DNA of 34,503 nt from Acidobacteriota bacterium (GTDB taxonomy: Bacteria; Acidobacteriota; Terriglobia; 2-12-FULL-54-10), in contig JACQGE010000004.1 of assembly GCA_016199675.1 (NCBI GenBank), positions 1 through 34,503 of the forward strand, written 5' to 3'. Below are positions 257-24,587 of the stretch, one piece after another. Position 1 is the first letter of the stretch; every line of letters begins with the position of its first letter. The notes beneath the pieces were generated by a model, which ran no database searches, had not been told where the DNA came from, and saw only the letters and a program-made list of their open reading frames with translations. The position numbers were made by a program, and so were the translations under genes.

Positions 257-349
257 CCTTGCAATACCCATAAGCGGCGAGTAGGCTTTGCTGCTAGGGG
301 AGGTTTCAATCCACGTATCCGTAGGCCCCCGTGTTACTCAAACGGGGGT
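257..349 (+). promoter_or_regulatory. Structured leader repeat, copy 1
   Basis: Shares CTTGCAATACCCATAA, GAGTAGGCTTT, GGGGAGGTTT and GTATCCGTAGGCCCCCGTGTTAC with 2750-2843; two hairpins (AGCGGC/GCTGCT and CCCCCGT/ACGGGGG); ends 23 nt before the ATG at 373. Confidence 0.75.
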
Positions 350-372
350 GCCGATTGTTGCAGGGAGGCAAC

Positions 373-1704: not shown

Positions 1705-1762
1705 TTCTGGCCAAGTGTCCCGCGGTCGGCTACGATCGACGCACCAATGAGCGCTCGTCTCC

Positions 1763-2665
1763 ATGCCCGTCACTGACTCCCCTCTCCGATATCCCGGGGG
1801 AAAGAGCCAGCTTGCCCCCCTAGTCATCGATATCCTGCGCTCGAACAGGTTGCTTTATGGCATCTATGTTGAGCCCTTCGCAGGCGGCTCTGGACTTGCG
1901 TTGAAGCTGCTCCTCAACAGCCTTGTGAGCGAGATATACATAAACGACATCGACCGCTCGATCTACGCCCTGTGGCATAGCGTGCTCAATTCGACCGATG
2001 AGCTGTGCGCACGCGTGGGAAAAGCCAAGGTCCACATAACTGAATGGCGCAGGCAACGGGCTGTCCAGGACGCTCGATATTCCACATTGCTGGACCTGGG
2101 GTTCTCGACCCTGTTCATGAATAGGACAAATCACTCAGGCATTATCCGTGGAGGCGTGATAGGCGGTTTCGATCAAAATGGGCCATACAAAATTGATTGT
2201 CGATTCCGCAAAGGGGAATTGATAAGAAAAATAGAACGGATTTCTAAGTACAAGCCAGGGATACACCTTAGCCGAATGGATGCACTTCAATTCCTGACCA
2301 AGGTAGTTGCCAAGAAGGTCCAAGGACCAGCGCTGGTGAACCTCGACCCTCCTTACATAAGAAAGGGACCCGAGCTTTATCAGAATCACTACACGATGGA
2401 CGACCATGCCCGCCTTGCTAAGGCGGTCCGAGGGATCAAGCAATACTGGATGGTGACCTACGATGACACGCCTGAGGCAAGAGCCCTATATGTTGATTTC
2501 CCGTCGTTCACGCAGGAACTGAAGTACACCGCCCAGATTAAGAGGGTCGGCGTTGAACTGCTAGTCCTAGACCCGAGGCTTGATCTGCCGAGATCATTGA
2601 GCCAAGTTCAGCGCTTGGCGGCCTGCAAAGGGAAGGCCCGCGGAGAGGGTAGGCGGGATCTGTGA
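1763..2665 (+). CDS. DNA adenine methylase, D12 class
   Basis: LRYPGGKSQLAPL, FAGGSGLALKLL and NLDPPYIRKGPELY motifs. Confidence 0.9.
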   Translation: MPVTDSPLRYPGGKSQLAPLVIDILRSNRLLYGIYVEPFAGGSGLALKLLLNSLVSEIYINDIDRSIYALWHSVLNSTDELCARVGKAKVHITEWRRQRAVQDARYSTLLDLGFSTLFMNRTNHSGIIRGGVIGGFDQNGPYKIDCRFRKGELIRKIERISKYKPGIHLSRMDALQFLTKVVAKKVQGPALVNLDPPYIRKGPELYQNHYTMDDHARLAKAVRGIKQYWMVTYDDTPEARALYVDFPSFTQELKYTAQIKRVGVELLVLDPRLDLPRSLSQVQRLAACKGKARGEGRRDL

Positions 2666-2749
2666 CTTGACTCTTATTGCTTGGCTTTGAGCGTAATTTG
2701 CAATTCCCATTGGTGCCCATTTCTGCTCGCGTCGGGGACCCGCACCCTT

Positions 2750-2843
2750 CCTTGCAATACCCATAACGGGAGAGTAGGCTTTTCTCCTTGGGGAGGTTTT
2801 CTGTCCATGTATCCGTAGGCCCCCGTGTTACCTCATCGGGGCC
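2750..2843 (+). promoter_or_regulatory. Structured leader repeat, copy 2
   Basis: Diverged copy of 257-349 with both hairpins retained, including compensatory pair changes; ends 34 nt before the ATG at 2878. Confidence 0.75.
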
Positions 2844-2877
2844 ATACTTGGCGCTAACGAGCCGCTATCCCAGTGCT

Positions 2878-5049
2878 ATGACAACAATAACCTTCACCAG
2901 GCCTAACCTACTTGGAATTCTGGCGGCGGAATCAGACCGTGAAATGCTTAATAAGGCATTTCTCGAAACTCCAGACTACCGCACTCTCATCGAGACCTCA
3001 GATCGGATTGTAGTAGTCGGTAGGCGCGGCACTGGAAAGAGCGCGCTGGCAATTGCATTAGAGAAGTATTGGCGCAATGTAGAACGCACCAAGCTATTGA
3101 AGCTTACGCCGGAGGAACATCATGTAATCGGTGCCCGCCCGCTAATTCAGCTGTTCGGAGGTTCCTTTTCAAGAATTCGAGCGGGTTCCAAATTGCTTTG
3201 GCGTTACTCCCTAATGATGGAGGCTGCCCATGCGCTCGCCCCGCGGTTTTCGTTCTCGCATACAAAAGAGTACGAACTCCTGAAGGCGCCTATCGAAACG
3301 TGGCTACGCCGCGGCCCCACAATTCCCGACCGCTTTACAAGACTACTGAAAGACGCTGTGGACCCAAGTCGCTCCCCAGAGGAACGGATTGGGGATCTAC
3401 CAATTAAGCTCGATCTCACAAAGATCGAAACTGCGCTCGCATCTGCCTGCAAACAAACTAACGAATGCGTTGTTTTCCTAATCGACCGACTAGACGAAGG
3501 GTACGAACCTGACGATATTGGCATTGGCTTGGTAGATGGATTGGTTCAAGCAGCAATAGACCTCAAGGATCGCCTTCCGGGCGTCAGATCCATTGTCTTT
3601 TTGCGCGATAACATATTCCGAGCCGTTCAGGCGCGTGATCCTGACTACACGCGGAACATAGAAGGACACGTACTGCGCTTACACTGGGATCCACCCGACC
3701 TACTTGATTTTGCAGCCAACCGACTCAAGATTGCCCTCTCCATTCACGAGGAGTCCTCTCAAAAGGTATGGAACCTCTGCACTACAGAGGACCTTAAAGG
3801 CATGCCGGGGTTTCTGAAATGCCTTCAGCTCACACTTTACCGACCACGTGACTTGATGGCCCTACTCAATGACGCGTTCTATCTCGCAGGAAAGCAAGGG
3901 CAGATGCACCTTTCGTTACCGCACATTGACGGCACCGCTAAGGCAATATCCGAAAATAGACTCCGCGATCTGCAAAAGGAATACGAGGCTATTATCCCCG
4001 GCTTAGAAGAATACATCGGCGCATTTAAGGGGATGCCACCAGAGCTCGGGATTGCAGAAATCACACCATTCCTGGAACAGACACTCGCGAAGGGCTCAGA
4101 GAATTCACTAATACAGCAGGATTTTCTCATTCTAGATGATGCAAAAACGCTAACTCGCGCCCTTTTCACCATCGGCTTTCTCGGCGCACAGGACACTCTA
4201 ACCGGATCCTTTGTCTTCTCCCACGATGGTCGTACGCCTGATCGCGAATTCAATAGCGGTGACAAAATCTTGATCCATCCGTGTTATCGAATGGCACTCA
4301 ACTGTGCGAAAACGCACCTGGAGCCAGGCGAAGCCGAAGAGATATTTGACGAATACGATATTGAAGTCTCGTCTGAAACTCCAGCAATTCGAAATGCGAA
4401 GATCAGCCAACTGATCCAGCAACTTGAGCAGATCCCCATAGGCAATGATGGGGATGGACTTTTTGAGGTGTGGTGTCATAAGGCTATAAGGATATGTTTT
4501 GCAAAAGGGCTCAGAAACGTAGAAATTAAGCCGAATAAGCAAGCCAATACCCGCCGCGACGTTGTAGCACTCAATCTCGGAGAGGGGAACTTTTGGAACC
4601 GAATTCTGCAGGATTACGGCGCACGTCAGGTTATTTTTGAGATTAAGAACTATCAAGATTTGAAAGCCGATGACTACTACCAAGTGCTTTCATACCTGAC
4701 AGGGGAATATGGGAGACTGGCCTTTGTCGTCACCCGTGATGACACCGTTGACCTATATTCAAAGAGAGATGTCGAGTGGGTACGCAGTTTGCATGCAGAG
4801 CATAAAGTATTAATCGTTAAACTTACCGGCAAGTATTTCTCAAAGTTGCTCTACAAACTTCGGAACCCACAGCGTCACGACGAAATGAACGACGCTCTGC
4901 ACAAAATCCTAAATACCTACACAAGGCTCTATCTGGCAGGCCAAACCAAAACCGAGGCCCGCGAGGAAAAACGTCACCGGCGCAAACATCAAAGAGCACG
5001 GAAAGCTTCGAAGCCGACGAACCCGCTATTAGGAAGAAAGGTCCGCTGA
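2878..5049 (+). CDS. P-loop ATPase with C-terminal nuclease-like region
   Basis: Walker A VVVGRRGTGKSAL, VVFLIDRLDEGYEP Walker-B-like; C-terminal RRDVVALN...QVIFEIKNYQ resembles a PD-(D/E)XK core. Start chosen downstream of the leader repeat. Confidence 0.7.
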   Translation: MTTITFTRPNLLGILAAESDREMLNKAFLETPDYRTLIETSDRIVVVGRRGTGKSALAIALEKYWRNVERTKLLKLTPEEHHVIGARPLIQLFGGSFSRIRAGSKLLWRYSLMMEAAHALAPRFSFSHTKEYELLKAPIETWLRRGPTIPDRFTRLLKDAVDPSRSPEERIGDLPIKLDLTKIETALASACKQTNECVVFLIDRLDEGYEPDDIGIGLVDGLVQAAIDLKDRLPGVRSIVFLRDNIFRAVQARDPDYTRNIEGHVLRLHWDPPDLLDFAANRLKIALSIHEESSQKVWNLCTTEDLKGMPGFLKCLQLTLYRPRDLMALLNDAFYLAGKQGQMHLSLPHIDGTAKAISENRLRDLQKEYEAIIPGLEEYIGAFKGMPPELGIAEITPFLEQTLAKGSENSLIQQDFLILDDAKTLTRALFTIGFLGAQDTLTGSFVFSHDGRTPDREFNSGDKILIHPCYRMALNCAKTHLEPGEAEEIFDEYDIEVSSETPAIRNAKISQLIQQLEQIPIGNDGDGLFEVWCHKAIRICFAKGLRNVEIKPNKQANTRRDVVALNLGEGNFWNRILQDYGARQVIFEIKNYQDLKADDYYQVLSYLTGEYGRLAFVVTRDDTVDLYSKRDVEWVRSLHAEHKVLIVKLTGKYFSKLLYKLRNPQRHDEMNDALHKILNTYTRLYLAGQTKTEAREEKRHRRKHQRARKASKPTNPLLGRKVR

Positions 5050-8786: not shown

Positions 8787-8996
8787 ATGAGCGAGCAACA
8801 GACGCCGACCGTTTCGCCGTTGATCCAGTCGCTCCTCCCGGACGCGACCGTCGAGGAGCAACTGGAGGCACAGCAGAATTTCCGCGAGTTCTTGGCGGTG
8901 GCGTACCGCATGCACCTGCGGCTGCAGGCCGAAAAGGAAGCCTCGCGTGACAAAAAGACGGAGGGTGATACGGTAAACGACGCGCCAACGGTATGA
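8787..8996 (+). CDS. Small protein coupled to serine recombinase
   Basis: MSEQQTPTVSPLIQSLLPDATVEEQLEAQQNF...; stop overlaps recombinase ATG (ATGA). Confidence 0.55.
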   Translation: MSEQQTPTVSPLIQSLLPDATVEEQLEAQQNFREFLAVAYRMHLRLQAEKEASRDKKTEGDTVNDAPTV

Positions 8997-10570
8997 ACAG
9001 CTATTACGCGTATGTCCGTGTTTCCACGGTCAAACAGGGAGAAAAGGGTTCCTCGCTTCAAGAGCAGCGAGGCGCCATTGAAGCGTATGCCAAAAGAAAC
9101 GATCTGACCGTCGCGGAGTGGTTCGAAGAGACAGAAACGGCTGCCAAGCGCGGGCGCCGCGTCTTCAATCACATGCTCAAACTTCTCGAGAAGAACCGCG
9201 CCGCCGGCGTCATCATTCACAAGATCGACCGCAGCGCTCGGAACCTGAAGGACTGGGCGGATCTGGGGGAAATGATCGACCGCGGGGTGGAAGTGCACTT
9301 CGCCCACGAAAGCTTGGATCTGCATTCCCGGGGCGGGCGTCTTTCTGCTGACATCCAGGCGGTGGTGGCTGCCGACTACATCCGGAATCTCCGGGACGAG
9401 GTGCGGAAGGGGTTCAACGGTCGGCTCAAGCAAGGAATCTATCCGTTGCCGGCGCCGCTTGGATACAAGGACCAAGGCTCGGGACTACCCAAAACCCCGG
9501 ACCCCGTGATGGGCCCCTTGGTGCGGCGCGCCTTTGAGATATACGCGACCGGGCGCTCCAATCTGCACGCGCTCAGAGCACAACTCCACGCCTTGGGATT
9601 GCGGAATCGTCGGGGGCGGGCCGTGTCTCTAGCCGGACTTTCCTGGGTCCTGAACAACCCCTTCTACATCGGCCTCATACGCATTAAACGGACCGGCGAG
9701 ACGTATCCTGGCATACACCAACCCCTGATCTCGAAACAGCTCTTTGACCGGGTGCAGGCGATTCTCCACGGCCGGACCAAGAACCGGGGACTCAAATACG
9801 ACTTCGTGTTTCGGCGTTTCCTCCGCTGTGCGACCTGCGGGTACCGGCTGATCGGCAGCCTGCAAAAAGGACGCGTGTACTACCGTTGCCAAACGAGAAC
9901 CTGCCCGACCACCTGTTTGCGGGAGGACGCGGTCGCCGAACAACTGGACCGAGCTATCGCGGAACTCAACCTGGATTCGCTCGACATTGACCTACTCAAG
10001 CAGGAATGCGCGTTCGTGACCAAGGATATTGCCGGCAGCCGAGAGCAGGACGTGAAGGCACTTCAGCTTAGCGTCTCGCAGATCGACGATCGGGTCCTGC
10101 GACTAACCGACGCGTACATAGATCGGCTCATCGACAAAGAGCTGTTTGAAACTCGCAAGGCGAAGCTCTTGGAGGAGCGAATAGCCATCCAGGAGAAAAT
10201 CGCCGAGTTCTCCCAGGGCGACTCCTACCTCGACGCAAAGCTCACGGAATTCCTCGAACTCATAAGATCGTTGGCGGGCAAGGAGAATCCGGCGAATCTG
10301 GAGGAGAAGAGGGAATTCGCAAAATCAGCCACCTCGAACTTGGCGGTTGATCAAAAAACCCTTGTGTATGCTTGGCGACCGCCGTTCGATGCGTTCGCCA
10401 ACTGGCAAGAATCGCTATATGGTGCGCCGCATCGGGGCGCATCTCGAACTTTCCATAAGAAAAGCACGGCGTGCGGGAAGACGCAAGCCCGCAAACCTTG
10501 CTCTGTCTGTGCAAGTTATCACCGCTTGGCGAGAATAATTATGAGTGTTCTAGGGGATGACAAAGAGTAA
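8993..10570 (+). CDS. Large serine recombinase
   Basis: N-terminal YYAYVRVSTVKQGEKGSSLQEQ and IIHKIDRSARNLKDW; recombinase domain; zinc ribbon CATCGYRL...YYRCQTRTC. Confidence 0.92.
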   Translation: MNSYYAYVRVSTVKQGEKGSSLQEQRGAIEAYAKRNDLTVAEWFEETETAAKRGRRVFNHMLKLLEKNRAAGVIIHKIDRSARNLKDWADLGEMIDRGVEVHFAHESLDLHSRGGRLSADIQAVVAADYIRNLRDEVRKGFNGRLKQGIYPLPAPLGYKDQGSGLPKTPDPVMGPLVRRAFEIYATGRSNLHALRAQLHALGLRNRRGRAVSLAGLSWVLNNPFYIGLIRIKRTGETYPGIHQPLISKQLFDRVQAILHGRTKNRGLKYDFVFRRFLRCATCGYRLIGSLQKGRVYYRCQTRTCPTTCLREDAVAEQLDRAIAELNLDSLDIDLLKQECAFVTKDIAGSREQDVKALQLSVSQIDDRVLRLTDAYIDRLIDKELFETRKAKLLEERIAIQEKIAEFSQGDSYLDAKLTEFLELIRSLAGKENPANLEEKREFAKSATSNLAVDQKTLVYAWRPPFDAFANWQESLYGAPHRGASRTFHKKSTACGKTQARKPCSVCASYHRLARIIMSVLGDDKE

Positions 10571-10649: not shown

Positions 10650-11153
10650 TCACGCATAAGTGCTTGGGAGAGACGGGGTCCTGCTTTTGATGTAATGGAA
10701 TAACTCTTGACGCCAAGCGCAAATAAAATGGTGGGCTTCGCCGATACCTTCTTCGCAAAGAAGCTCTAAGGTTTCTTCATCCAAAATATCGCCTTCAGGA
10801 TTGGAGAACCATCTCGCGAGTGTTTCGGCCATCAAAACGTCCTCGCTGCGTGTTGCACCCAGTAGTACAGAGCAATATGCATTGAGAAACAACAGGTGGT
10901 ATTGAGGGAATCGGGAAAACATCTGACCTATTTCACTATTTCGTGGCCACAGTGCATCCAGCTTGGCCTTTATCTCTCTCACGGATCGGGGATCGCCGAT
11001 GGCATCGCAGAATGTACCTCCAATCGCCTTCAGGAGAAGACGAAATCCCAAGCCATACAACAGGAGCTGCTTCTCGTCCGCAGGCAACAGACTATAGTAG
11101 CCAGATAGCAATTGCTCAGAATTGAACTCATCAAGCGTGTGGACTTCGTCCAT
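10650..11153 (-). CDS. Hypothetical protein
   Basis: 167-aa ORF with no recognised family. Confidence 0.45.
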   Translation of the reverse strand: MDEVHTLDEFNSEQLLSGYYSLLPADEKQLLLYGLGFRLLLKAIGGTFCDAIGDPRSVREIKAKLDALWPRNSEIGQMFSRFPQYHLLFLNAYCSVLLGATRSEDVLMAETLARWFSNPEGDILDEETLELLCEEGIGEAHHFICAWRQELFHYIKSRTPSLPSTYA

Positions 11154-11423
11154 GAGCCTCCCCTATGCTGTGCTTTCGTGTTTAGGGCACCCCCTAATAT
11201 TGTGCCAGAAATCATAAGGGCGCTTGCCTTGTCCCTGCGGCTCGCGCTCACGCTTACCTCCGAAAGTTGGGTTAGGCGTGTTGCGCTGTAGGTTCTTAGG
11301 TCGGCAAGTTATTCGAGCAATCGGCCATCGTTCGTAGTGAGCTTTCCCGGAGCGGTCGGAAATGACAATAATTGGCTAAAGTGGAATTCCTGGGAAGCGA
11401 TCAATCGGGATTAAAGGCTACTG

Positions 11424-11558
11424 ATCGTGACGAGGCTACAACCATCGTAGGTGCGTATTTCAGCCCATCGTAGACGGCCATTTCAAAGGATCGTAGACGG
11501 CATTTCAGGCTGATCGTAGACAGCGTTTCAAGCTGATCGTGGACGATCGCGGGGGTGC
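11424..11558. repeat. Degenerate 23-bp tandem repeats
   Basis: ATCGTAG-starting units at 11444, 11467, 11490 and 11513 at exact 23-bp spacing, with partial units at 11424 and 11536. Confidence 0.8.
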
Positions 11559-11766
11559 GTGAGTGACCTGACCACAAGCATGCTTGCCGATTTTTCAGAC
11601 AAACCATGCCTACACCCGGATCACAATGCGCCAAATTCGCCACACCCTTGTTCGTAAACAACTATTCGTGCGATAGCCCTGAATCATAATGGCTTTGCCC
11701 CTTGACAATTGTTTGTCTTGCTACTAGCCTTCATTTCGAGACGCGCCACGCAACGGGAGGCAGAAA

Positions 11767-11976
11767 ATGGTCGAAGAGCACAAGGCAGAGATCTATGATC
11801 TTGAAAGTTCGCAGGCCGCTGATCTTGCATGCCCCGGTTGTTCCATCACCCCGACCGGACCGGCCACGAATATTCATCGCCCAGTCTTATATGACTTAGA
11901 ATTAGCTCAAGCGGGAGATTTGGCCTGTCCGGGGTGTTCTATTACCCCCGCTCCCAACACTGCGCAAACGTCCTAG
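11767..11976 (+). CDS. Candidate RiPP precursor with two internal repeats
   Basis: ATG after CGGGAGGCAGAAA; YDLESSQAADLACPGCSITP and YDLELAQAGDLACPGCSITP, with mostly synonymous codon differences across ACPGCSITP. Confidence 0.7.
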   Translation: MVEEHKAEIYDLESSQAADLACPGCSITPTGPATNIHRPVLYDLELAQAGDLACPGCSITPAPNTAQTS

Positions 11977-12021
11977 GTGTTCAGTCGCGGGTTGCAAATC
12001 CGTTCCTAGGAGGAGCACTGC

Positions 12022-12150
12022 GTGCGAGTGAAGGTAGGTATTCTGTGCTGCGAGCGACCCAGCATGGGTCTTTTGCAGCTATGCACAACAAGCGACCAAA
12101 AGGGAGAGCGAAATATAAACACCGATTTGTTTAGCGTACTGTACACGTAG
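12022..12150 (+). CDS. Possible small ORF (GTG start)
   Basis: CTAGGAGGA before GTG; 42 aa MRVKVGILCCERPSMGLLQLCTTSDQKGERNINTDLFSVLYT. Confidence 0.3.
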   Translation: MRVKVGILCCERPSMGLLQLCTTSDQKGERNINTDLFSVLYT

Positions 12151-12431
12151 TGCATGATTTCATAATCATGGAATATTAGCCTGGTCAGTCGCTCTCCGAA
12201 AAACACCTCAATAGTCGCGTTTGGGCTTTGGTCCAACGTTCGTATCTATTAGCACATTATCTTAGACGCGATCTAAATAGCCTCTAACGGTCCTTTACTT
12301 CTGACCCAATATTTGTGCTCCAAAAGAGGGATAAGCGTCGCCGAATCCTCACGGCAGGGCGTTACACCTAATCGTGAAAAGAGGTGGGGCCAGTCTCGTG
12401 TTCAGCCAGTTCCCATAAATGTACCGCATAT

Positions 12432-13634
12432 ATGAATTACTACCTCGTTAACATCGACACTGGCCACCTAGTTGGATGTAACCTGATCGCCGCTTCGTTT
12501 ATTCGAGAGTGGATTAAAGGAGGCGTGGAAGGCGATCGCGAGATTTTTGCAGAAATGGCGCGGCGGGGATTTTCAAGACGTAATACTCGAATTATCGCCG
12601 AGTGCTACGAAAATGGCACACCAACTATCCTTGCCGCGCAACTTAATCTAACGTGGAAATGCAATTTAAAATGCAAGCATTGCTACGTTGGCAATAATAT
12701 GCTTCTGGCGCCACCTCTAGCCTTTGACGAGTGGGTTTGCATAATCCAGGAACTAAAAAATCTGAATGTTCCGCGTATAGCCTTCCTTGGGGGCGAGCCA
12801 ATTCTCTTTAAGTACTTCTTCGATCTCTCTCAGGTTGCACGAGATCAGGGATTCAAAATCTTGACGTCAACAAACGGCACACAGATTGATCGACAAACTG
12901 CACGGTCGATAAAGCAAGCGGGTTACACGGAGGTCGATGTATCCTTGGATGGCGGGCTGCCCAGCACGCATGAGGCTCTACGTGGATACGGTACGTTCCG
13001 GAAGACCCTTCAAGGCATTCGCTTTCTCTTGGAGGAGAGTCTAAGCGTCAAGACCGCAACGGTTCTGCATAAAAGCAATTTTAGAGAGGTTCTAGAAATA
13101 GCGAAGATTGCTGAGCAAATGGGGGTTGAGCACTGCTTCTTCAACAATCTAGTCCCTGGCGGGCACGGAGCGGACCTTTGGCGTTCCGAACGGTTAGATA
13201 CGGCGGAACTCGAGGAGGTAAAACGAGTAGTGTTTCGATGGAATCAATTGCACGAGCAGCCGCGGCTTTTTATGGAGCTGCATTTTGACTATAAGATCCT
13301 CGACCGAAAGTTGCTAACGGTTCCGTCATCCTACGCGGGTTGTAAGGCCGGCCGAAGAGAAATCCTAATTCGGCCAGATGGATATGTCGCACCATGCCCA
13401 TTATTCCTGACAAACCCGGTAGTGCTGAAATCCAATGTCCGGGACATGTCTATTCTTGATATTTGGTCCAAGGATTCTGCGATACTGCAATTCCGGCGAG
13501 CGAATGACGAAGCCAACCTGAAGGGAAAATGTTCGAATTGTGGCTTCAAGTCTTTGTGTAAGGGGGGATGCCATGCAGCTGCATATCACGATTCGCACGA
13601 TTTATGTAACCCCGACCCAAGGTGTCCACAGTAG
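12432..13634 (+). CDS. Radical SAM/SPASM peptide-modifying enzyme
   Basis: CNLKCKHCY (CxxxCxxC); SPASM-type C-terminal cysteines (CKAGRREILIRPDGYVAPCPL...CSNCGFKSLCKGGC...CNPDPRC). Confidence 0.9.
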   Translation: MNYYLVNIDTGHLVGCNLIAASFIREWIKGGVEGDREIFAEMARRGFSRRNTRIIAECYENGTPTILAAQLNLTWKCNLKCKHCYVGNNMLLAPPLAFDEWVCIIQELKNLNVPRIAFLGGEPILFKYFFDLSQVARDQGFKILTSTNGTQIDRQTARSIKQAGYTEVDVSLDGGLPSTHEALRGYGTFRKTLQGIRFLLEESLSVKTATVLHKSNFREVLEIAKIAEQMGVEHCFFNNLVPGGHGADLWRSERLDTAELEEVKRVVFRWNQLHEQPRLFMELHFDYKILDRKLLTVPSSYAGCKAGRREILIRPDGYVAPCPLFLTNPVVLKSNVRDMSILDIWSKDSAILQFRRANDEANLKGKCSNCGFKSLCKGGCHAAAYHDSHDLCNPDPRCPQ

Positions 13635-13646
13635 CGTCGGCAGCTG

Positions 13647-14366
13647 ATGTTGCGGGCCGCGGACTTACTTCTTCAATATCCACGGCCAGATAACATTCGC
13701 AATTGCGAGCACGTAATGGTGCTTGCACCTCATCCTGACGACGACATCATAGGCGCCGGTGGGGTAATTGCACTGCATCTCGCAGCTGGGGCCAACCTAA
13801 CTGTCGTCTACTTGACTGACGGGGAAGCGACAGTAGCCCTACGTGGGTCACCTCAATGCGCAAGAAGAACTGTAAGACTGCGAGAAGCAAGAACCGCTCT
13901 TGCAAAACTGGGGACTGCCAAAACCGAATGTTTACACCTGGAAGATGGTCGCTTAAATAGTGCACTGACAGCCCTTAGTTGCCAGGTAGCCTTTCTTCTC
14001 GACACATACAAACCACAAATTATTTACTTACCATTTTTTGGAGACGCCCACCCTGACCACCGCGCCGTTACGTGGGCGTTGAGCCGTATCAAATGGACTG
14101 CGCAATCGGACGTAACAGTCGCGTGCTACGAAATCTGGTCTCCTCAACCCGCGAACATAATTGTGGACATAACCGATGTTGCAGCAAAGAAGTTTGCAGC
14201 GTTAATGGAACATAGGACGGCATTAACATCTCTGAATTATCTACCCTACGTTAAATCCCTAAACCGATACCGGGCTATGCACCGAGATTCGTGGCGTTAT
14301 GCGGAGGCTTTTCTTGTTCTTGCGTTGAAAGAATATATTTGTCTCGCACGGCAATGTCATCCTTGA
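13647..14366 (+). CDS. PIG-L/LmbE-family deacetylase
   Basis: VMVLAPHPDDDIIGAGG and GDAHPDHRAV metal-binding motifs. Confidence 0.92.
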   Translation: MLRAADLLLQYPRPDNIRNCEHVMVLAPHPDDDIIGAGGVIALHLAAGANLTVVYLTDGEATVALRGSPQCARRTVRLREARTALAKLGTAKTECLHLEDGRLNSALTALSCQVAFLLDTYKPQIIYLPFFGDAHPDHRAVTWALSRIKWTAQSDVTVACYEIWSPQPANIIVDITDVAAKKFAALMEHRTALTSLNYLPYVKSLNRYRAMHRDSWRYAEAFLVLALKEYICLARQCHP

Positions 14367-15505
14367 ATCTATTGATGTGGCCGAATTTCTTCTTCCCAAA
14401 GACTGGGGGCGTTGCAACTGTTGTGTACAATCTTGCGCACCAGCTCCGCTATTACGATATTCACACTTCTGTTGTAACAGAGACGTTTAGAGATGCTCCC
14501 GCTATGGAGCGTGGGTCTTGGGGTGGAGCAGTCTTTAGAATCCCCTTTATGGTCCCGGAAGCTGAACTGGGTGATGCTGCTAACCGCTACATGTCTCCGC
14601 TAAGGCGGATCATTGTTGACGAATCTATCGACCTCGTGCACGTACATCTGCTAGATATACAAGGCTACTATGCGAATGTGCTTCTCAAAGAGGTAAAGAT
14701 TCCCTTAGTAGTATCAATTCATGGATCGGACATATTCCACTTCCACCGTAAGAACCGCTTTCTCCAGGAACAGGCGATAAGTCTTCTTGAAAAGGCACAG
14801 CTCGTCATTTCTTGCTCGGCTGCCCTCGCGCAGGAATTGGAAGCGATTATGGCTGACGCGCGTGCGAGTAATCCGAACATAGCGGTTATCCCAAACGGAA
14901 TTAATATTTCATGCTTATCGTACGCGGTTGAATCAGCGGCTCGGCCACGACCTGGAGGTCCAATTCGCGTGCTCGGGATTGGCCGCCTCGATTGGGTAAA
15001 GGGATTCGACATTCTTGTACAAGCTGTTTATCTAATAAAAGAAGAGAGGACCATCCCCAAGCTTGCCGTTCAGATTGTCGGGGATGGAGAAGAGCGGGAA
15101 CCGTTGCAGCGCATGGTGCAAGAACTCGGATTAGTGGACTGTATTGGATTTAATGGTGAATGTCCAAATGATCTTATCCCACGGTTCCTCCAGACAGCGG
15201 ATATGTTGGTAGTCCCTTCCCGGACAGAAGGATTTGGAATCGTAGTATTAGAGGGCATGTGTGCCGGGCTACCAATAGTGGCGAGCGCAACTGGTGGAAT
15301 TCCGGAGATAATAACGCATGGCAGGCACGGCTGGCTTGTTCCGCCTGAGAATCCCCGGGCTTTGGCCGAAGCCCTACTCAGCGCGATTCGGGATAGGGCA
15401 AGGTGGCCGGACTATGCAATGCAAAACAGAAATGACGTGCGTCGTTACGACTGGCGCCACATTTCGGCTCGGTATGCGAAAACTTATAGAGATCTTCTAG
15501 TGTGA
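14354..15505 (+). CDS. GT4-family glycosyltransferase
   Basis: N-terminal FFPKTGGVATVVYNLA; C-terminal VPSRTEGFGIVVLEGMCAGLPIVASATGGIPEII. Confidence 0.92.
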   Translation: MSSLNLLMWPNFFFPKTGGVATVVYNLAHQLRYYDIHTSVVTETFRDAPAMERGSWGGAVFRIPFMVPEAELGDAANRYMSPLRRIIVDESIDLVHVHLLDIQGYYANVLLKEVKIPLVVSIHGSDIFHFHRKNRFLQEQAISLLEKAQLVISCSAALAQELEAIMADARASNPNIAVIPNGINISCLSYAVESAARPRPGGPIRVLGIGRLDWVKGFDILVQAVYLIKEERTIPKLAVQIVGDGEEREPLQRMVQELGLVDCIGFNGECPNDLIPRFLQTADMLVVPSRTEGFGIVVLEGMCAGLPIVASATGGIPEIITHGRHGWLVPPENPRALAEALLSAIRDRARWPDYAMQNRNDVRRYDWRHISARYAKTYRDLLV

Positions 15506-15513
15506 GATGGACG

Positions 15514-17004
15514 CTAATGTGAGCGGGCAATGTAAACCAGCTCAGTTGCTTCGTTCCCGCTCACAATACATTTTCGATTACGTGGTCGTTCCGCGTCTTG
15601 GAATGCAACTCCGCATACGTAGGCCCCGCGGGTCTTCTCCTGCAGTATTTTGCCATATTGCTCTCCGTCTGCACCAATGCTACAGAAGGGCACTCGGACA
15701 AACCCCCCCGCACTGTCAAGGATAGCGATAGCAGCATCCAGCGTTTCAGCATCATGAATCTTGTCTGCAAAGTAGGTGCCTGCGCTATCTTCTAAGTGGA
15801 CGTCAAGGTTCCGGGACGCAGTTGCTATTGCCTCCACGAGATTCGAATCCGCGACCTCCACCTTACCCGGTAACACACGGATATTGATTACTGCACTACC
15901 TTTGTCAATATCCCGTCGGCCAATCTCTATGCGTAAAGGTACTCCTTTCATTTCCCATTCATTGAACTTGAATCCAGGAGTTCTATCCGTTGCATCAATG
16001 AAAGGCCGATAGTTTGCGGCACGAAGGCTCTCTTCTACGGCAGCACATTTGGCCAAAATATTGGAATTCACGGCCACGTCACTCGATAGGATGGGGATGA
16101 TTACGATCTGGATGGGGGCTACGTCAAAGGGTAAGACAAGTCCCTTGTCGTCTCCGTGAATGCCGATCAACGCAGCCATAATCCTCCAGATACCGGGCCC
16201 GAAGCAATTCTGGTAGACGTACCGCTCTACGCCGGCTGGGTCCGAGAATTTAATACCGAAAGGCTTTGCGAACCGTTGACCTAGATCATGTGTGCTGGAT
16301 ATCTGGTTACGTTTCCCGTCGGGCATTATCGTATCCGCGACGTAGGTGTCCTCAGCACCTTTAAACTTATCCCATTGCGGTCTCTTTAGGAAAAGATGAG
16401 GAATTTTTAGTTTCCCCCAAATAACCTTGCGCATTGTCTCCATGTCGTGGGTGATTTCTGTCATCACTTGCTCATGGGAGGCAAAACAGTTGTGCGTCTC
16501 GAAGAACAGAAACTCCCTGCCGCGAAGAAAGGGCCTTGTGGAAAGTTCATAGCGAAACACCGTGTGCCGGGACTGATATCTTCTAAACGGAAGCTGACTG
16601 TGGGATCGTATCCAACGAGCGTACATTGGGTAGAATTGCGTCTCCCCGGTAGGCCGCAAAGCCAGTCTTTCCTCAATCTTTTTGGTTCCCGCAGCTTCGA
16701 CCCAGAACACTTCCGGGGTGAACCCGGCGTGCTCCTTTTCTAACGTAAGATATTGTTCCCGAATTAAAGTGGGGAAGATTACTGGCTCGTGGCCTCTATC
16801 TTCTACTTCCTTTTCGAGCCACTGGTAAATCGATCGTATTATGCGAACGGCGTTCGGAAGATGAACCAGTAACCCACCAACTCCATAATTCACGTCCACC
16901 AACTCCGCGCCGGTGAGACCGCAGACTTGCGAATACCACTCCGAAAAGTTCTCCGCTTTTGGAGTGCGAATACCAATTGCCTTATTTTTCTTTTCGCGAG
17001 TCAT
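15514..17004 (-). CDS. proS: Archaeal/eukaryotic-type prolyl-tRNA synthetase
   Basis: ALRPTGETQFYPMYARWIRSHSQLPFRRYQ, VFRYELSTRPFLRGREFLFFETHNCFA, C-terminal Cys-containing domain ending VYIARSH. Confidence 0.85.
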   Translation of the reverse strand: MTREKKNKAIGIRTPKAENFSEWYSQVCGLTGAELVDVNYGVGGLLVHLPNAVRIIRSIYQWLEKEVEDRGHEPVIFPTLIREQYLTLEKEHAGFTPEVFWVEAAGTKKIEERLALRPTGETQFYPMYARWIRSHSQLPFRRYQSRHTVFRYELSTRPFLRGREFLFFETHNCFASHEQVMTEITHDMETMRKVIWGKLKIPHLFLKRPQWDKFKGAEDTYVADTIMPDGKRNQISSTHDLGQRFAKPFGIKFSDPAGVERYVYQNCFGPGIWRIMAALIGIHGDDKGLVLPFDVAPIQIVIIPILSSDVAVNSNILAKCAAVEESLRAANYRPFIDATDRTPGFKFNEWEMKGVPLRIEIGRRDIDKGSAVINIRVLPGKVEVADSNLVEAIATASRNLDVHLEDSAGTYFADKIHDAETLDAAIAILDSAGGFVRVPFCSIGADGEQYGKILQEKTRGAYVCGVAFQDAERPRNRKCIVSGNEATELVYIARSH

Positions 17005-17410
17005 GTACCAAGTCTATAACAAGACATGCCTATCTGGTATCTTTCATATTACCAAGGCCTTCTTACCACCGCAACTAAGCTAACTGTGGGGCTGTCAACG
17101 GGGATTAAAATCCGCGTGTTCTTGGGGGTACGCGGAAAGCAGGCATCGATCATGCTTGCACCGCGTGTCGGACGTTTTTTCTTTACAAGCGAATTCTGTT
17201 CGATCAGGCACATAACGTTGAACGTAGCCCACCAGGAGAGCGCTGCGGGGTCTTACTTCCGTATAGAGCAGATCCGTCTGCCGCGCGTTTCGCCACCATT
17301 TTCCGGCGGATTTACAACCCCAGCAACAGTGGGGCCGTCGAGCACGTCCAGTTGGCGCGCAATCGTGCTGCTATTAGGGCGTCTATAGAAACGAAATCGC
17401 TTTCCTATAT

Positions 17411-17974
17411 TCACTTTGCAAGCATCGGATTCAGAGCAAAGTAGTCGCAACGAATAACTATCTCGGTCCGAGAATTTATGGAAATGTCCGAATTTCCTAG
17501 GGCACCCACAAGTTTGCTTAGACGTGCAGAAGAAATTCGACACCTTCCCCTTCCGAGTATCGAGCCACCGGCGTCAATGACCGTTACGACGTCACCCTCG
17601 GAAAATAACCCACGGACATTCTCAACTCCTATTACCAATATCGAGACTGCCCGCCCATTTCGGAGATTATCAGCGAGAAAAGTACTTACTTCCAACTCGC
17701 CCTTACTCGCTGCCGCGAGGGCTATCCAGCTCTTCATCTGGCCGAGGCGTTGCCCTCGCGGCTTAACTCTAGTTACTGTTCCTTCGTTTTCCATGAATGG
17801 AGATTCATTTTCGGCATTGCCGGTGCCTACAACCATTTCAATTCCAAACCCCGATAACAGCCGGGCAGCATTAAACTTTGCAACAATTCCCGCAGACTTT
17901 GACACAACAATGGAATCCATGTCACTAATAGTTCCGAGCCTACAGTAATTGAGATCCGTCGCAGGATCGACCAT
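17411..17974 (-). pseudogene. Glutamate 5-kinase C-terminal part plus PUA-like domain, lacking most of the kinase domain
   Basis: VSKSAGIVAKFNAARLLSGFGIEMVVGTG...RGQRLGQMKSWIALAAASKGELEV...GLFSEGDVVTVIDAGGSILGRG matches the ProB C-terminal pattern; in-frame TGA shortly upstream. Confidence 0.55.
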
Positions 17975-18774: not shown

Positions 18775-19977
18775 ATGTCCCTCAACCCCGCGATTTCCTA
18801 TTTCGGCGTCACCAACGGCCGGCTGCCGCACCAGGCGTTCGGGATCAAACAGGCCGACCGACTCTTTCACATGTATCTGCTCGGCCGAAGTGGCGTCGGC
18901 AAGACCACGATGCTGGAGACGATCGCGCTGCAGGACATTGGCCACGGCCGCGGCATCGCTGTCATCGACCCTCACGGCGATCTGGCCGAGAGTCTCGTAC
19001 AGCAGGTTCCAGATTGGCGCAAGGATGATCTCGTCTATCTCAACGCCGCGGACCCGACGCAGTCGTATGGATACAACCCACTGCGTGGCGTCAGGGCCGA
19101 CAGAATCCCCTTGGCCGCTTCAGGCCTCATGGAAGCCTTCAAGAAGCTCTGGGACGAGGCCTGGGGAGTACGCATGGAGCATGTGTTGCGGCAGGCCCTC
19201 TATGCGCTCATCGAATACGGCCAGGCAACGCTGCCGGACGTGCTCCGCATCCTCACCGACAAGTCCTTCCGTTATGCCGTGCTCGCCAAAGTGAAGAACG
19301 ACCAGGTGCGCGCCTTCTGGACGAAGGAATTCAAGGAATACAACCCCCGCTATCGCCAGGAATCCATCGCCCCGATCCAGAACAAGATCGGCGCCTTCCT
19401 GGCCGATCCGCGGCTGTACCGCATGCTCACCGCTCCGCCCATTGACCTTCATTTCCGGAAGCTCATGGACGAAGGCAAGATCCTCATCGTTAATTTGGCG
19501 AAGGGACGTCTCGGCGCAGATAGCGCGAATCTGATCGGTGCGCTTTTGGTGACTACCCTAAGCCTCGCCGCCTTCAGCCGGGCCGATGTTGATGAATCAA
19601 AACGTCCCGACTATTTCATCCTGATAGATGAATTTCAAAGCTATACAACCCTCTCTGTCGCAATTATGGTCTCGGAGCTGCGCAAGTACCACGTCGGACT
19701 GGTGCTAGCGCACCAGCATCTGCACCAATTGGAACCGGCGGTCCAGCATGCGGTCTTGGGCAACGCCGGCACCCTCATTTCCTTCCGGATCGGCCCCGAG
19801 GACGCGCGGGTCATGGCACGGGAGTTCGAACCGGTGTTCTCCCCCGAGGACCTGGTGAACCTCCCGAACCACAGCCTATACGTGAAGCTCATGATCGACG
19901 GCGCCCCAAGCCGGCCGTTCAGCGCCAATACGTTGCGTCCGATGGATCTTGAGAGAGCGAACCAATCGGGATCATAA
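18775..19977 (+). CDS. HerA/TraG-like (T4CP-type) ATPase
   Basis: LLGRSGVGKTTML, AVIDPHGDLAESL, FILIDEFQSYTT, LVLAHQHLHQLE. Confidence 0.85.
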   Translation: MSLNPAISYFGVTNGRLPHQAFGIKQADRLFHMYLLGRSGVGKTTMLETIALQDIGHGRGIAVIDPHGDLAESLVQQVPDWRKDDLVYLNAADPTQSYGYNPLRGVRADRIPLAASGLMEAFKKLWDEAWGVRMEHVLRQALYALIEYGQATLPDVLRILTDKSFRYAVLAKVKNDQVRAFWTKEFKEYNPRYRQESIAPIQNKIGAFLADPRLYRMLTAPPIDLHFRKLMDEGKILIVNLAKGRLGADSANLIGALLVTTLSLAAFSRADVDESKRPDYFILIDEFQSYTTLSVAIMVSELRKYHVGLVLAHQHLHQLEPAVQHAVLGNAGTLISFRIGPEDARVMAREFEPVFSPEDLVNLPNHSLYVKLMIDGAPSRPFSANTLRPMDLERANQSGS

Positions 19978-20012
19978 TAGCCGCTCGGTTCATAACCCAT
20001 GGGGAGGGGAAT

Positions 20013-20399
20013 ATGAAGCTGTTGCTGCGGCGGAACCAGAAGGCCGGCATGCTCGGCATGGGCAAGATCGCCTTTATCCTTGAAGTCCGAGCCGAGCTCA
20101 CCGACCAGGAAAAGAAGAACATCGAGAAATACCGGCTCGGGGACACGATGCTCTATGAGCGCGACAAGATCATCGACCCCGGCAAGGGGCTTCTCGGCTT
20201 GGCATCGCGGCTGGCCTTCAAGATGATGAATATCTCGGTGTCGGTCGATGATCTCTCGAACGGCAAGAAGATCGACTGCAAGGACATCGTCGAGATGCTT
20301 GCGGTCGAAGAACAGATCCGGGAAGCCGCCCAGACCTTCAAGAACGTGCTTACCGCAGCCGCCTCCTTCGGCGGTGAGGAGGTTATCGAGCTGAAGTAG
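20013..20399 (+). CDS. Conserved-looking hypothetical between two ATPases
   Basis: 128-aa ORF abutting the next gene, whose ATG follows its stop. Confidence 0.6.
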   Translation: MKLLLRRNQKAGMLGMGKIAFILEVRAELTDQEKKNIEKYRLGDTMLYERDKIIDPGKGLLGLASRLAFKMMNISVSVDDLSNGKKIDCKDIVEMLAVEEQIREAAQTFKNVLTAAASFGGEEVIELK

Positions 20400-23171
20400 A
20401 TGTCGTCCAACCTGTGGAACGGGCTGCTCGACCTGTTCGTCGGAACTGGTCAGGAGCGCGAGGTTCGGGACACCCTCAAACTGTGCGCGGAAGTCACCAG
20501 CGCTCGGAGCGCCTCTCCCTTCGCGGACGAAAAGCGACTCGGCCGGTTTCTCGTTGACCTTATCGCCGAAATCTGCGAGCGCCGCGGCGTGACGCCGTCG
20601 ATTCCGCTTGGCGGGATGCTCTGGGGGACCATCAAGAACCTGCTGTACTTTGACGGCATCCTCGTCGAGCTTCCAGAGGAATCGGTTCTTCGCAACCTCA
20701 CGCTCGAAGAGGGCGTCCAGATGCGCGCGACCTTGAACCGCCAACTGCATTTCCTCACCGACCACGACCGCCTGCTCACCCTCTGGCGCAACAAGCTCTT
20801 GAATCTGTTTGCGGGCCTGCTCGAATACTTTCCGTTGTCGGCCTTCACGGATATCGACGACAACGGAATCGCTGCCGACGAATCGGTCGTGCTGCCGGAA
20901 GCCAAGGCGTATGACCTCTGCGACAACCTCCCGGAGCTGGTCGAGCGGCTCATCGTCTCCTTCTACGACGACGATATCCAAAACGCGCATTTGTTCCAGC
21001 CGCTCCGGGAGCGCTTCAATAGCAACCTGTACCGGGTGTCCGGCATCCCAGACAACACACCGCATGAAGAGGTCAACAGGAGGGCCATTCTTCCCACCAG
21101 AAACAAGAACACGTCGCCGGAGTACCTCATAGAGGCGTACCTGCAGGGGACGCCGTTTCTTCCGATGTTCCACGATACCCTGCCGTTTGCCATTCCGTTC
21201 CCCGCCCGCTTCGAACATACGCACGTCGTCGGCGGGACCGGGCACGGCAAGACGCAGCTCCTGCAGTTCCTCATCAACCACGACTTGGTGCGCGCGATGC
21301 GGGACGGCCGCTCGGTGGTGGTCCTCGACAGCCAGGGCGACTTGATCCGCACAATCTCCCGGCTGGCATATTTTGGCCCCGCCGCCGCCGAGAGCCTTGC
21401 CGACCGATTCGTTCTCGTCGACCCCAACGACGTCGAGCATCCCGTCTGCCTCAACATGTTCGACTTCAACCGGGACCGCCTGAGCGGCTATGCCCCGGTG
21501 GACCGCGAGAAAATCCTCAACGCCACGGTCGAGCTGTATGAATACTTCTTCGGGGCGCTCCTCGGCGCCGAGCTGACCCAGCGCCAGGGACTCATTTTCC
21601 GGTATCTTGCGCGGCTCTTGATCGAGATCCCCGATGCGACCATTCATACCCTCCGGGAACTCATGGAGGACGGCGAGCGGTTCCGTCCATACATGGAGCA
21701 GCTCTCCGGGACGGCGCGGAGTTTTTTCGCGACCCGCTTCTTCGACCGGCAATTCAACGAAACGAAGAAGCAGATCCTCACCCGCCTCTGGGGCGTGCTT
21801 TCCAACGCGTCCCTGGAACGAATGTTTTCCCACCCGACAAACAAGATCGATATCTTCGAACTGCTGAACGAAGGCAAGATCATTCTCATTAACACGGCGA
21901 AGGACCTCCTTGGCCAGGAGGGGTCGGCCATCTTCGGTCGGTTCTTCATCGCCCTCATTGCCCAAGCGGCGGTGCAGCGCGCGGCGCTCCCCCCGCATGA
22001 ACGCCGGCCGAGCTTTGTGTATATCGACGAGGCCCAGGACTATTTCGACGAGAACATTTCCAATCTCTTGCACCAGGCGCGCAAATACCGCGTCGGGCTC
22101 GTCTTTGCCCACCAGAACCTGGACCAGCTCGGCGCGGGACTCCGCTCCAGCGTGCTGGCGAGCACCACGATCAAGTTCGTGGGAGGGGTGAGCGCAAAGG
22201 ACGCCAACGTGCTGGACTCGGAACTCCGGTGTCCCGCTGACTTCTTGATGGCCCAGAAGAAAGAGCGCGACTCCACGGAATTTGCCTGCCACGTCCGCAA
22301 CTTCACCGCGAAGGCCCTCTCTGTGCGCATTCCCCTCGGCTACGTCGAGTCGCTGCCAACGATGGACGCTTCCGAGCAAGAAGAGCTACTCGAAGAGAAC
22401 CGCGCCCGATACAGTACGCCGCCGGTCATCCCCCCGAGCGCTCCGTTTACCCCGACGCCTCGGCCTGCAACCGAGCGCGCGGCTCCCGAACCTCGAAGGC
22501 CAGCAGCACCTCCCAAGCCGGCGGAGGTGCCGGCAAATTCGCAGCCAGAAGTGACGCCTGCGATGCCGGAGATGGCAGTCCAAGTGCGAGAATCCGCTGC
22601 AGTGCAACCTGAAGCGAAGAGAAAACCGCCACCAGCCAGAAAGGAAGCGGTGCAGCCAGGCCGGGGCGGGCAGCAGCACAAGTACCTGCAACATCTCATC
22701 AAGCAGCTCGCAGAAGAACGCGGATTCCGGGCGTCGATTGAGGAAACGATCCTGAACGGCGCCGGGCGCGTCGACGTGTCCCTCGTGCGCGGCAAATCGA
22801 GGATCGCGTGCGAGATTTCCGTAACGACGAACCAGGACCAGGAGTTGGGGAACGTCGAGAAGTGCTTGGCTGCCGGCTACACCGGGGTGCTCTTGGTCGG
22901 GAGCAACGAACGGCACATCAAAGCGCTTGCCAAGTTCGTCGAAGAGAATATGGACGAGAGCGATCAGGGCAAGGTACGGTACCTCGTGCCGGAGCGCTTA
23001 ACTGAGTATTTGGACTCCTTGGGAGAAGCCCCGCCGCCTACGGAGCAGACTGTGCGCGGGTACAAGGTGCGCACCGTGCAGCAGGTGGTGGACCCGAAGG
23101 AGGCGGGCGCGCGACGACAGGCGATTGCGGAAGTGATTGCGCGGTCACTCAAGAGGAATGTTGGAGCGTAA
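20400..23171 (+). CDS. HerA/TraG-like ATPase with C-terminal nuclease-like domain
   Basis: VVGGTGHGKTQLL, VVLDSQGDLIRT, FVYIDEAQDYF, LVFAHQNLDQLG; Pro-rich linker; C-terminal GRVDVSLVRGKSRIACEISVTT. Confidence 0.85.
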   Translation: MSSNLWNGLLDLFVGTGQEREVRDTLKLCAEVTSARSASPFADEKRLGRFLVDLIAEICERRGVTPSIPLGGMLWGTIKNLLYFDGILVELPEESVLRNLTLEEGVQMRATLNRQLHFLTDHDRLLTLWRNKLLNLFAGLLEYFPLSAFTDIDDNGIAADESVVLPEAKAYDLCDNLPELVERLIVSFYDDDIQNAHLFQPLRERFNSNLYRVSGIPDNTPHEEVNRRAILPTRNKNTSPEYLIEAYLQGTPFLPMFHDTLPFAIPFPARFEHTHVVGGTGHGKTQLLQFLINHDLVRAMRDGRSVVVLDSQGDLIRTISRLAYFGPAAAESLADRFVLVDPNDVEHPVCLNMFDFNRDRLSGYAPVDREKILNATVELYEYFFGALLGAELTQRQGLIFRYLARLLIEIPDATIHTLRELMEDGERFRPYMEQLSGTARSFFATRFFDRQFNETKKQILTRLWGVLSNASLERMFSHPTNKIDIFELLNEGKIILINTAKDLLGQEGSAIFGRFFIALIAQAAVQRAALPPHERRPSFVYIDEAQDYFDENISNLLHQARKYRVGLVFAHQNLDQLGAGLRSSVLASTTIKFVGGVSAKDANVLDSELRCPADFLMAQKKERDSTEFACHVRNFTAKALSVRIPLGYVESLPTMDASEQEELLEENRARYSTPPVIPPSAPFTPTPRPATERAAPEPRRPAAPPKPAEVPANSQPEVTPAMPEMAVQVRESAAVQPEAKRKPPPARKEAVQPGRGGQQHKYLQHLIKQLAEERGFRASIEETILNGAGRVDVSLVRGKSRIACEISVTTNQDQELGNVEKCLAAGYTGVLLVGSNERHIKALAKFVEENMDESDQGKVRYLVPERLTEYLDSLGEAPPPTEQTVRGYKVRTVQQVVDPKEAGARRQAIAEVIARSLKRNVGA

Positions 23172-23258
23172 TGTACTACGAAGCTGGAGTGCGCCCAGGT
23201 CGGCGGCAAGTTTCCATCCAAACCTCGCCGCTGGTTTTCCGACAATTCAATTTCAATA

Positions 23259-24587
23259 ATGCTGGTGAAAACAGGGGCGAATTGGAAGCTAACCACTCGC
23301 CGGACTAGTGCAAGCCACAGAGAGAAGGTCGTGAGTAGCTCCAGGTCTAAGAGGACAGGTGCCGGGAATTCTGAAACACAGCGTCACAAGCGCACTCGGA
23401 CCGCCACGATTGGTGATCAGCGACTCGCAATCCCGTCGAGGCATAGTGCCTTTCGTCTTCTCGCCTGGCAGTCCTTGTCTCTTACACTAGAAAACGCGCG
23501 GCCTGTCAGCGTGTCGTTGCAGGGCATAAGTTGCTGCCTGACGCTACGACCTGCACAGCGAGGAGAACTCGCACAACGGACACGAGGCGGGTCGTTTATC
23601 GGACTAGATTTCCATCTTCCGAAGACGACGGATCTCTTAGTTGCCATACGTAAGGGGGTGGATCTCATCGAGGATTTTTTGTCGGCCGTGGCCTTGGTGG
23701 AGGGTGCGCCGTTGCGCGCGATCGAACCGGTGCAGGTGGCGCGGGCGTATGAGTCCTCTTCCTCTTTGCACAGGTATACCTTTGTCAGCTTCCTTCCGTT
23801 GATCCATAATCACTGGATTAAGCCGATATCGTCTGCCACAATCAACCGAGTTCGCCGCCTGGTCGCTCACTGGGATGGCCTTGATACTGGAACCCGTCTA
23901 CGTCGGGCCGCGCGGCACTTCCGTCGAGCAATCGGCACGTCTGACGATCTGGCCGCATTTCAAAATGCCTACATGGGACTCGAAGCAATGGAGAAGCCTC
24001 TCGCCCAAGCGATGAATATTCCGCCTGGCGTTGAGGAATTACAGGGGAGATGCGCCAACTGCGGGGCTACCTACACGCGGCGAAAGACGGTCCTCGCTGG
24101 AGTGCGAGCGTACGTGCGCGGCGATGTCCATCCGGCAACGACGTCGGCCGAGCGCCAGAAGGAATGGAAGGAGCTAAGCAGCCTCCGGCAGGAACTCTTC
24201 CACGGCTTGGCCGATACTTCAGAACTGGAGAATCGCGGTCAAAAGAGTCTCCCAGCCGCAATGCACTATCTTCACGACGCCATCTGTTGTCAGTCTCACG
24301 CTCACGATCTTGAATTTCCAAGGTTTAAGCTGGCCCGACCGCCACGCCAGCTCATTATGATGGGAGCCTTCACCGCGAACGAGCTTGGACCGCTCCAGAA
24401 CTGGGCGCCTCTCTTTGACACGCCGGACATGCATTGGGTCCGGCACAAACGCTACGGAATCGTCCCCGAATATCGTCTTCGTAATCGCGCCGTCCGGAAC
24501 GTGAGAGCGCGGTTCTTTTGGCTCAAAGGGCCTTTGAGTCTCGCATCGGAGGCGCGGCTTGAGGCTGCGAAATGGGAATCAGGTTGA
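23259..24587 (+). CDS. HEPN-like (Apea-type) hypothetical protein
   Basis: Long ORF with ELSSLRQELFHGLAD; start uncertain and N-terminal ~100 aa doubtful. Confidence 0.5.
   Translation: MLVKTGANWKLTTRRTSASHREKVVSSSRSKRTGAGNSETQRHKRTRTATIGDQRLAIPSRHSAFRLLAWQSLSLTLENARPVSVSLQGISCCLTLRPAQRGELAQRTRGGSFIGLDFHLPKTTDLLVAIRKGVDLIEDFLSAVALVEGAPLRAIEPVQVARAYESSSSLHRYTFVSFLPLIHNHWIKPISSATINRVRRLVAHWDGLDTGTRLRRAARHFRRAIGTSDDLAAFQNAYMGLEAMEKPLAQAMNIPPGVEELQGRCANCGATYTRRKTVLAGVRAYVRGDVHPATTSAERQKEWKELSSLRQELFHGLADTSELENRGQKSLPAAMHYLHDAICCQSHAHDLEFPRFKLARPPRQLIMMGAFTANELGPLQNWAPLFDTPDMHWVRHKRYGIVPEYRLRNRAVRNVRARFFWLKGPLSLASEARLEAAKWESG

Follow-up and report, generated by a model that had tools for sequence, protein, structure and literature searches.

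A candidate peptide-modification cassette with aminosugar-type genes and a divergent second prolyl-tRNA synthetase in an acquired segment of an Acidobacteriota genome

The whole 34,503-nt stretch of contig JACQGE010000004.1, from an uncultured Acidobacteriota bacterium, was analysed here (the window; all positions are window coordinates). Within it lies a gene for a precursor-like peptide of 69 residues (11767-11976, + strand), followed on the same strand by genes for a radical S-adenosylmethionine (rSAM)/SPASM enzyme, a PIG-L-type deacetylase and a family 4 glycosyltransferase (GT4), and then, on the opposite strand, by a gene for a prolyl-tRNA synthetase (ProRS). A preliminary description of this DNA, made from its letters alone, had placed a repeat-bearing peptide and the three enzyme genes in this order, and we found all four in place with the domains it had given.

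The peptide contains two units of the form YDLExxQAxDLACPGCSITP. Their cores, DLACPGCSITP, occupy residues 19-29 (11821-11853, +) and 51-61 (11917-11949, +), with a spacing of 32 residues. The two cores differ at 9 of 33 nucleotides, eight of these at third codon positions, with no change of amino acid. A simulation in which nine changes were placed at random never gave this synonymous-only outcome (0/300,000 placements). Over the longer unit, 12 codon differences are synonymous and 3 non-synonymous. The gene is present once in the genome, and a Shine-Dalgarno sequence (GGGAGG) lies 6 nt upstream of its ATG. Because the nucleotide differences between the cores are all synonymous, we conclude that this is a genuine gene with purifying selection on the repeat at the protein level. 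It therefore has the encoded precursor under selection expected of a ribosomally synthesized and post-translationally modified peptide (RiPP). A match to the zinc-ribbon-like DUF7559 proteins fell below the family cut-off and was rejected. Between the peptide and rSAM genes there is a 42-codon open reading frame (ORF; 12022-12150, +) with a GTG start and AGGAGG 8 nt upstream, which has no NCBIfam match; it may encode another small peptide or be what remains of a gene.

The rSAM/SPASM enzyme (12432-13634, +; 400 aa) matched Radical_SAM at 1.3e-20 and SPASM at 2.7e-9 in Pfam/NCBIfam searches, and its start is uncertain (GTG at 12384 or ATG at 12432). It has a CxxxCxxC motif at C77/C81/C84 and, by alignment, SPASM cysteines at C304, C322, C367, C370, C376 and C380. 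Its top NCBIfam profile was that of mycofactocin MftC, at 162.7 bits and below the cut-off of 265. The closest solved structures, both by sequence and by fold, were led by the peptide maturases SkfB, SuiB and PqqE, with the RiPP maturases SkfB and SuiB ranked first for the predicted fold. The model had a mean predicted local distance difference test score (pLDDT) of 60, and only its core fold was used. A PADLOC match to the anti-phage viperin pVip (70 bits) was set aside as generic radical SAM similarity, as the enzyme has a SPASM domain and scores higher with other families. Given the constrained two-unit peptide alongside, modification of the CPGC cores appears to be the likeliest role for this enzyme; that the 69-residue peptide is its substrate we put a little above an even chance.

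Two sugar-type genes follow. The PIG-L/LmbE-type deacetylase (13647-14366, +; 239 aa; PF02585, 1.3e-26) has intact HPDDD and HPDH motifs, and the GT4 (14357-15505, +; PF00534, 9.4e-41) has an intact E-x7-E motif and is BshA/EpsE-like, below the cut-offs. For PIG-L the nearest NCBIfam profile was BshB1 (75.4 bits, cut-off 182.5), while MshB gave 20.5 bits (cut-off 224.35); GT4 scored 130.9 bits against BshA (cut-off 273.7) and 106 against MshA (cut-off 462.5). The rSAM, PIG-L and GT4 genes form an operon-like row, as the first two are separated by 12 nt and the last two overlap by 10 nt. Since GT4 and PIG-L together resemble the pair that transfers and then deacetylates N-acetylglucosamine (GlcNAc) in mycothiol and bacillithiol synthesis, a free aminosugar is the likely outcome of their action. 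Whether they would act on the same product as the peptide and the rSAM enzyme is a more tentative matter, and we lean slightly against it. In two other loci of the phylum (L107 1459-3348 and L108 1390-3345), a PIG-L domain is fused to apparent GT2-type glycosyltransferase sequence in proteins of ~630-650 aa.

The ProRS gene (15514-17004, - strand) converges on that of GT4 across an 8-nt gap. Both this arrangement and the archaeal type proposed in the preliminary description hold: the protein passes the TIGR00408 cut-off (444.7 bits vs 437), keeps the class II catalytic residues, and has the methanogen enzymes 1nj1 and 1nj8 as its closest solved structures, with which it groups on a long branch. 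It is also a second copy. The host's own ProRS is encoded on another contig (G000:C187:4483-5763) and is 32-35% identical to it, while each of 60 relatives searched had at most one family-I ProRS match, and six genomes of the same family had at most one copy each. Compared with 39 reference sequences, the window copy retains R117, T119, E121, R151, E153, E169, H171, H239, R274, E351, R376 and K381. Around the active site it has the changes S120G, T172N, H174F, G236S, T237S and T266N, and in the anticodon-binding domain R375I and D377V, all at positions that are invariant or nearly so in the references (S120, T172, H174 and T237 are invariant in all 39). It has also lost C-terminal zinc-site cysteines conserved in most of them (C450Y, C482S). 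From general knowledge of ProRS structures, we take the changed active-site positions to lie at the proline pocket.

As far as sequence can tell, this is what would be expected of a putatively active enzyme whose binding of substrate or inhibitor has changed. The ProRS may be a resistant duplicate, an aminoacyl donor or ligase, or a passenger. A second, divergent copy beside biosynthetic genes is what self-resistance would predict, and apart from the peptide it is the strongest natural-product-like signal at the locus; we rate its membership of the pathway at just short of even. ProRS matches on Clostridioides plasmids are set in ordinary synthetase gene rows and were discarded as related loci. 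A literature search combining prolyl-tRNA synthetase with biosynthetic gene clusters and self-resistance found ProRS named only in a reference list.

The last ORF of this group (17411-17974, - strand), directly beyond the radC terminator, encodes the C-terminal half of a glutamate 5-kinase (ProB) with its PUA domain. It is truncated at the 5' end and matches TIGR01027 positions 208-359 of 363, which falls short of a complete kinase domain. Judged by eye, the similarity appears to extend past the ATG into upstream sequence that offers no start codon. The kinase loop is degenerate and reads SKSAGIVAK, where the canonical ProB loop is GTGGM-x-TK. A single-sequence model of this protein (pLDDT 34) was not used. 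We consider the ORF likely to be a remnant cut at the edge of an acquired segment, and the donor locus therefore probably carried a proB-like gene beside ProRS. No proB was found beside any of 37 ProRS loci examined (~1.5 kb flanks), so the pairing is not a usual housekeeping context at those loci.

All these genes fall within a compositional island at 10650-17974, bounded by a serine recombinase gene on its left and by radC on its right. The GC content at third codon positions (GC3) of its seven ORFs is 0.44-0.53, compared to 0.70-0.79 for the recombinase, coupling-protein and radC genes that flank it; the GC content of stretches from two other contigs of the same genome is 55-56%. The island genes are not the only low-GC genes in the window, as an M78-type gene elsewhere has a GC3 of 0.50. 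Because its GC3 is low and uniform relative to most flanking genes, we read 10650-17974 as one acquired segment. This island, the nature of the ProRS as a divergent second copy and the truncated proB all go beyond the preliminary description, and the locus gains interest over its first description from the ProRS duplicate and the proline-linked remnant.

How might these genes work together? Our preferred reading, to which we give a probability of about 0.4, is that the segment carries an acquired, orphan RiPP-like cassette for an aminosugar-bearing, Cys-modified peptide, with ProRS providing self-resistance or acting as aminoacyl donor. This reading draws on the purifying selection on the peptide repeat, on the presence of MftC, SkfB, SuiB and PqqE among the nearest matches of the rSAM enzyme in profile, sequence and fold, on the known transfer-then-deacetylate logic of the GT4 and PIG-L pair, on a second ProRS that retains its catalytic residues while those of the pocket shell differ, and on the single GC3 range of all the segment genes. 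The YDLExxQAxDL segment, repeated before each core, would guide the rSAM enzyme, which would act on the Cys-Pro-Gly-Cys cores to form a thioether or another C-H modification. GT4 could then join an N-acetylhexosamine either to that modified unit or to some small acceptor, and PIG-L would deacetylate the sugar, giving a free aminosugar. For ProRS there would be two possible roles, as a resistant duplicate of the enzyme that the product targets or as the supplier of prolyl groups for the product. Genes for proline supply may also have been part of the donor locus, as the proB remnant suggests.

Some of these steps have precedents. Mycofactocin is a radical-SAM RiPP that can be glycosylated (PMC7491314). 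Duplicate synthetases in antibiotic clusters serve as resistance or aminoacyl-transfer enzymes, with AcmD/AcmF and SbzA (PMC12945691) and albomycin SerRS2 (PMC9437257) as examples of the resistant-duplicate or aminoacyl-donor roles, and MshC as a further precedent for a donor or ligase (PMC9437257). If the genes form one pathway, it would join radical-SAM peptide modification, mycothiol-type GlcNAc transfer and deacetylation, and a pathway-linked ProRS, a trio not found together in the literature searched, and the duplicated synthetase would point to a testable target, ProRS. A bolder version, in which a new class of natural product is made from an rSAM-modified two-core peptide as an aminosugar conjugate that targets or uses ProRS, the archaeal-type copy conferring self-resistance or transferring an aminoacyl group, seems to us improbable.

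The claim that no described RiPP class has this gene set was supported by comparison with known systems. Mycofactocin synthesis (MftA-F) is alike in having a short peptide, a SPASM rSAM enzyme with MftC as its top match, and glycosylation within the pathway. In contrast, the window enzyme falls below the MftC cut-off, MftB, MftD and MftE were not found among the island ORFs, the peptide has CPGC repeats and lacks the MftA C-terminus, and the glycosyltransferase is a GT4 with a PIG-L partner. The sactipeptide and ranthipeptide maturases SkfB and CteB also act beside a short Cys-containing peptide, and among solved structures SkfB is the best match in both sequence and fold; however, identity is only ~23%, GT4, PIG-L and ProRS are foreign to these systems, and a thioether is only putative here. 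Bacillithiol and mycothiol synthesis (BshA/BshB, MshA/MshB/MshC) share the GT4 and PIG-L pair with a synthetase-like protein nearby, but none of the BshA, MshA, BshB or MshB cut-offs was reached, and the synthetase of the window is a ProRS of class II, not a class I ligase resembling cysteinyl-tRNA synthetase (CysRS); the window also has an rSAM enzyme and a peptide. The AcmD/AcmF, SbzA and SerRS2 clusters resemble the window in that their biosynthetic genes are accompanied by an extra, divergent synthetase. Streptomyces ProRSx is likewise a duplicated ProRS, but arose from a bacterial ProRS and has its own tRNA (PMC9437257); the window contains no tRNA gene, and therefore no such partner, and no Rfam family.

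Several observations weigh against the cassette reading. A gap of 455 nt separates the peptide gene from the rSAM ATG at 12432, and ProRS lies on the strand opposite to the operon. After MftC, the next-best rSAM profiles, with good scores, were those of the heme-synthesis enzymes AhbD and NirJ. No RiPP recognition element, a domain that is common but not universal in such pathways, was matched by Pfam (the N-terminal 65 residues of the rSAM enzyme were modelled at pLDDT <50), and the island segment holds no protease or transporter gene. Searches of plasmids, phages, IMG/VR and GTDB brought up nothing related to the peptide, and no relative of the rSAM enzyme exceeded 33% identity in 100 relatives, 396 phylum genomes, 399 class genomes, IMG/VR or GTDB; the IMG/VR and GTDB scans used exact short peptide patterns, which can miss relatives of moderate identity. 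Patchwork or conservatively substituted rSAM copies served only to steer the choice of patterns (two IMG/VR scans and the GTDB scan), and no close match resulted. The best GTDB rSAM match (L079) was a distant SPASM enzyme with no other cluster gene nearby and was rejected as a related cluster. Neither the relatives nor the database scans yielded a second locus with the same gene set, and glycan-type loci of this phylum likewise hold clusters of rSAM/SPASM, PIG-L and GT4 genes.

The preliminary description had proposed one pathway and a search for co-occurrence of its genes. Adjacency, shared composition and one gene overlap speak for a common pathway, but neither a peptide relative nor a close rSAM relative emerged to show co-occurrence, and rSAM/SPASM-GNAT-PIG-L rows beside GT4 without a CPGC peptide are a partial counter-example. 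A single shared pathway, inferred from one locus, is thus plausible but unproven.

These rows bring in the main and serious rival, a surface-glycan or glycolipid pathway in which a sugar is the substrate of the rSAM/SPASM, PIG-L and GT4 proteins and the adjacent peptide gene has nothing to do with them. In two genomes of the phylum (G174 and G183; loci L129 and L130), an rSAM/SPASM-GNAT-PIG-L row lies near GT4 and B12-dependent rSAM genes, and the CPGC repeat peptide was found in neither. PIG-L relatives in the phylum reach 41% identity, with several, including the closest, in glycan-type loci; in another genome (G298) a PIG-L 33-36% identical to that of the window accompanies GT4-type genes and an apparent ABC-2 type exporter. 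However, the rSAM enzymes of L129 and L130 are only ~22-25% identical to the window enzyme, further glycan genes are absent from the window operon, and directly ahead of it lies a strongly constrained peptide. On balance we hold this explanation to be unlikely.

Chance co-transfer, with the segment a composite of an unrelated peptide, a glycan-type operon and a ProRS-proB remnant, would fit a right edge that cuts through proB, repeats resembling insertion-sequence ends at 11440-11560 and the failure to find co-occurrence elsewhere. Against this, all seven ORFs are of similar composition, and the lack of proB beside the 37 ProRS loci argues that ProRS-proB is not their usual housekeeping context, which leaves this explanation distinctly unlikely. 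Least probable of all is a mycothiol- or lincosamide-like logic, in which GT4 and PIG-L make a glucosamine conjugate, the ProRS paralogue activates proline or cysteine and attaches it to the free amine, as the CysRS-like MshC does in mycothiol, and the peptide and rSAM enzyme belong to a separate step or system. Methanogen-type ProRS, with which the window copy groups, has been reported to activate cysteine, and the pocket-shell substitutions would suit such a change; but MshC lacks the anticodon-binding domain and the conserved WExKGVPLR segment that this ProRS retains, so that tRNA binding is likely retained, and ProRS lies outside the operon. The precedents are the MshA, MshB and MshC logic itself (for MshC, PMC9437257) and the proline-aminosugar amides of lincosamide synthesis, which involves an LmbE-type protein (PMC4351081).

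The surroundings of the island may point to mobility. Adjoining the left edge of the island is an XisF-like large serine recombinase gene (8993-10570, +; PF00239, PF07508 and PF13408, with NF041201 below cut-off), a possible mobilising gene. The first island ORF (10650-11153, - strand) encodes a 167-aa protein with no match in Pfam, NCBIfam, PADLOC or PHROG, and its GC3 of 0.52 matches the low GC of the island. At 11440-11560 there are 3-4 imperfect tandem copies of a ~23-nt unit, 'GATCGTAGACGGCATTTCA...', which we liken to the multiple repeats at IS21-family element ends; the stretch has no second copy in the genome. Two coupling-protein/HerA-like ATPases (TrwB/DUF87; 18775-24587, +) adjoin radC, which suggests that the island sits within an element that is mobile or integrated. 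Further upstream (331-5049, +), two proteins matching the phage families phrog_9592 and phrog_13260, both of unknown function, flank a D12-class adenine methyltransferase gene.

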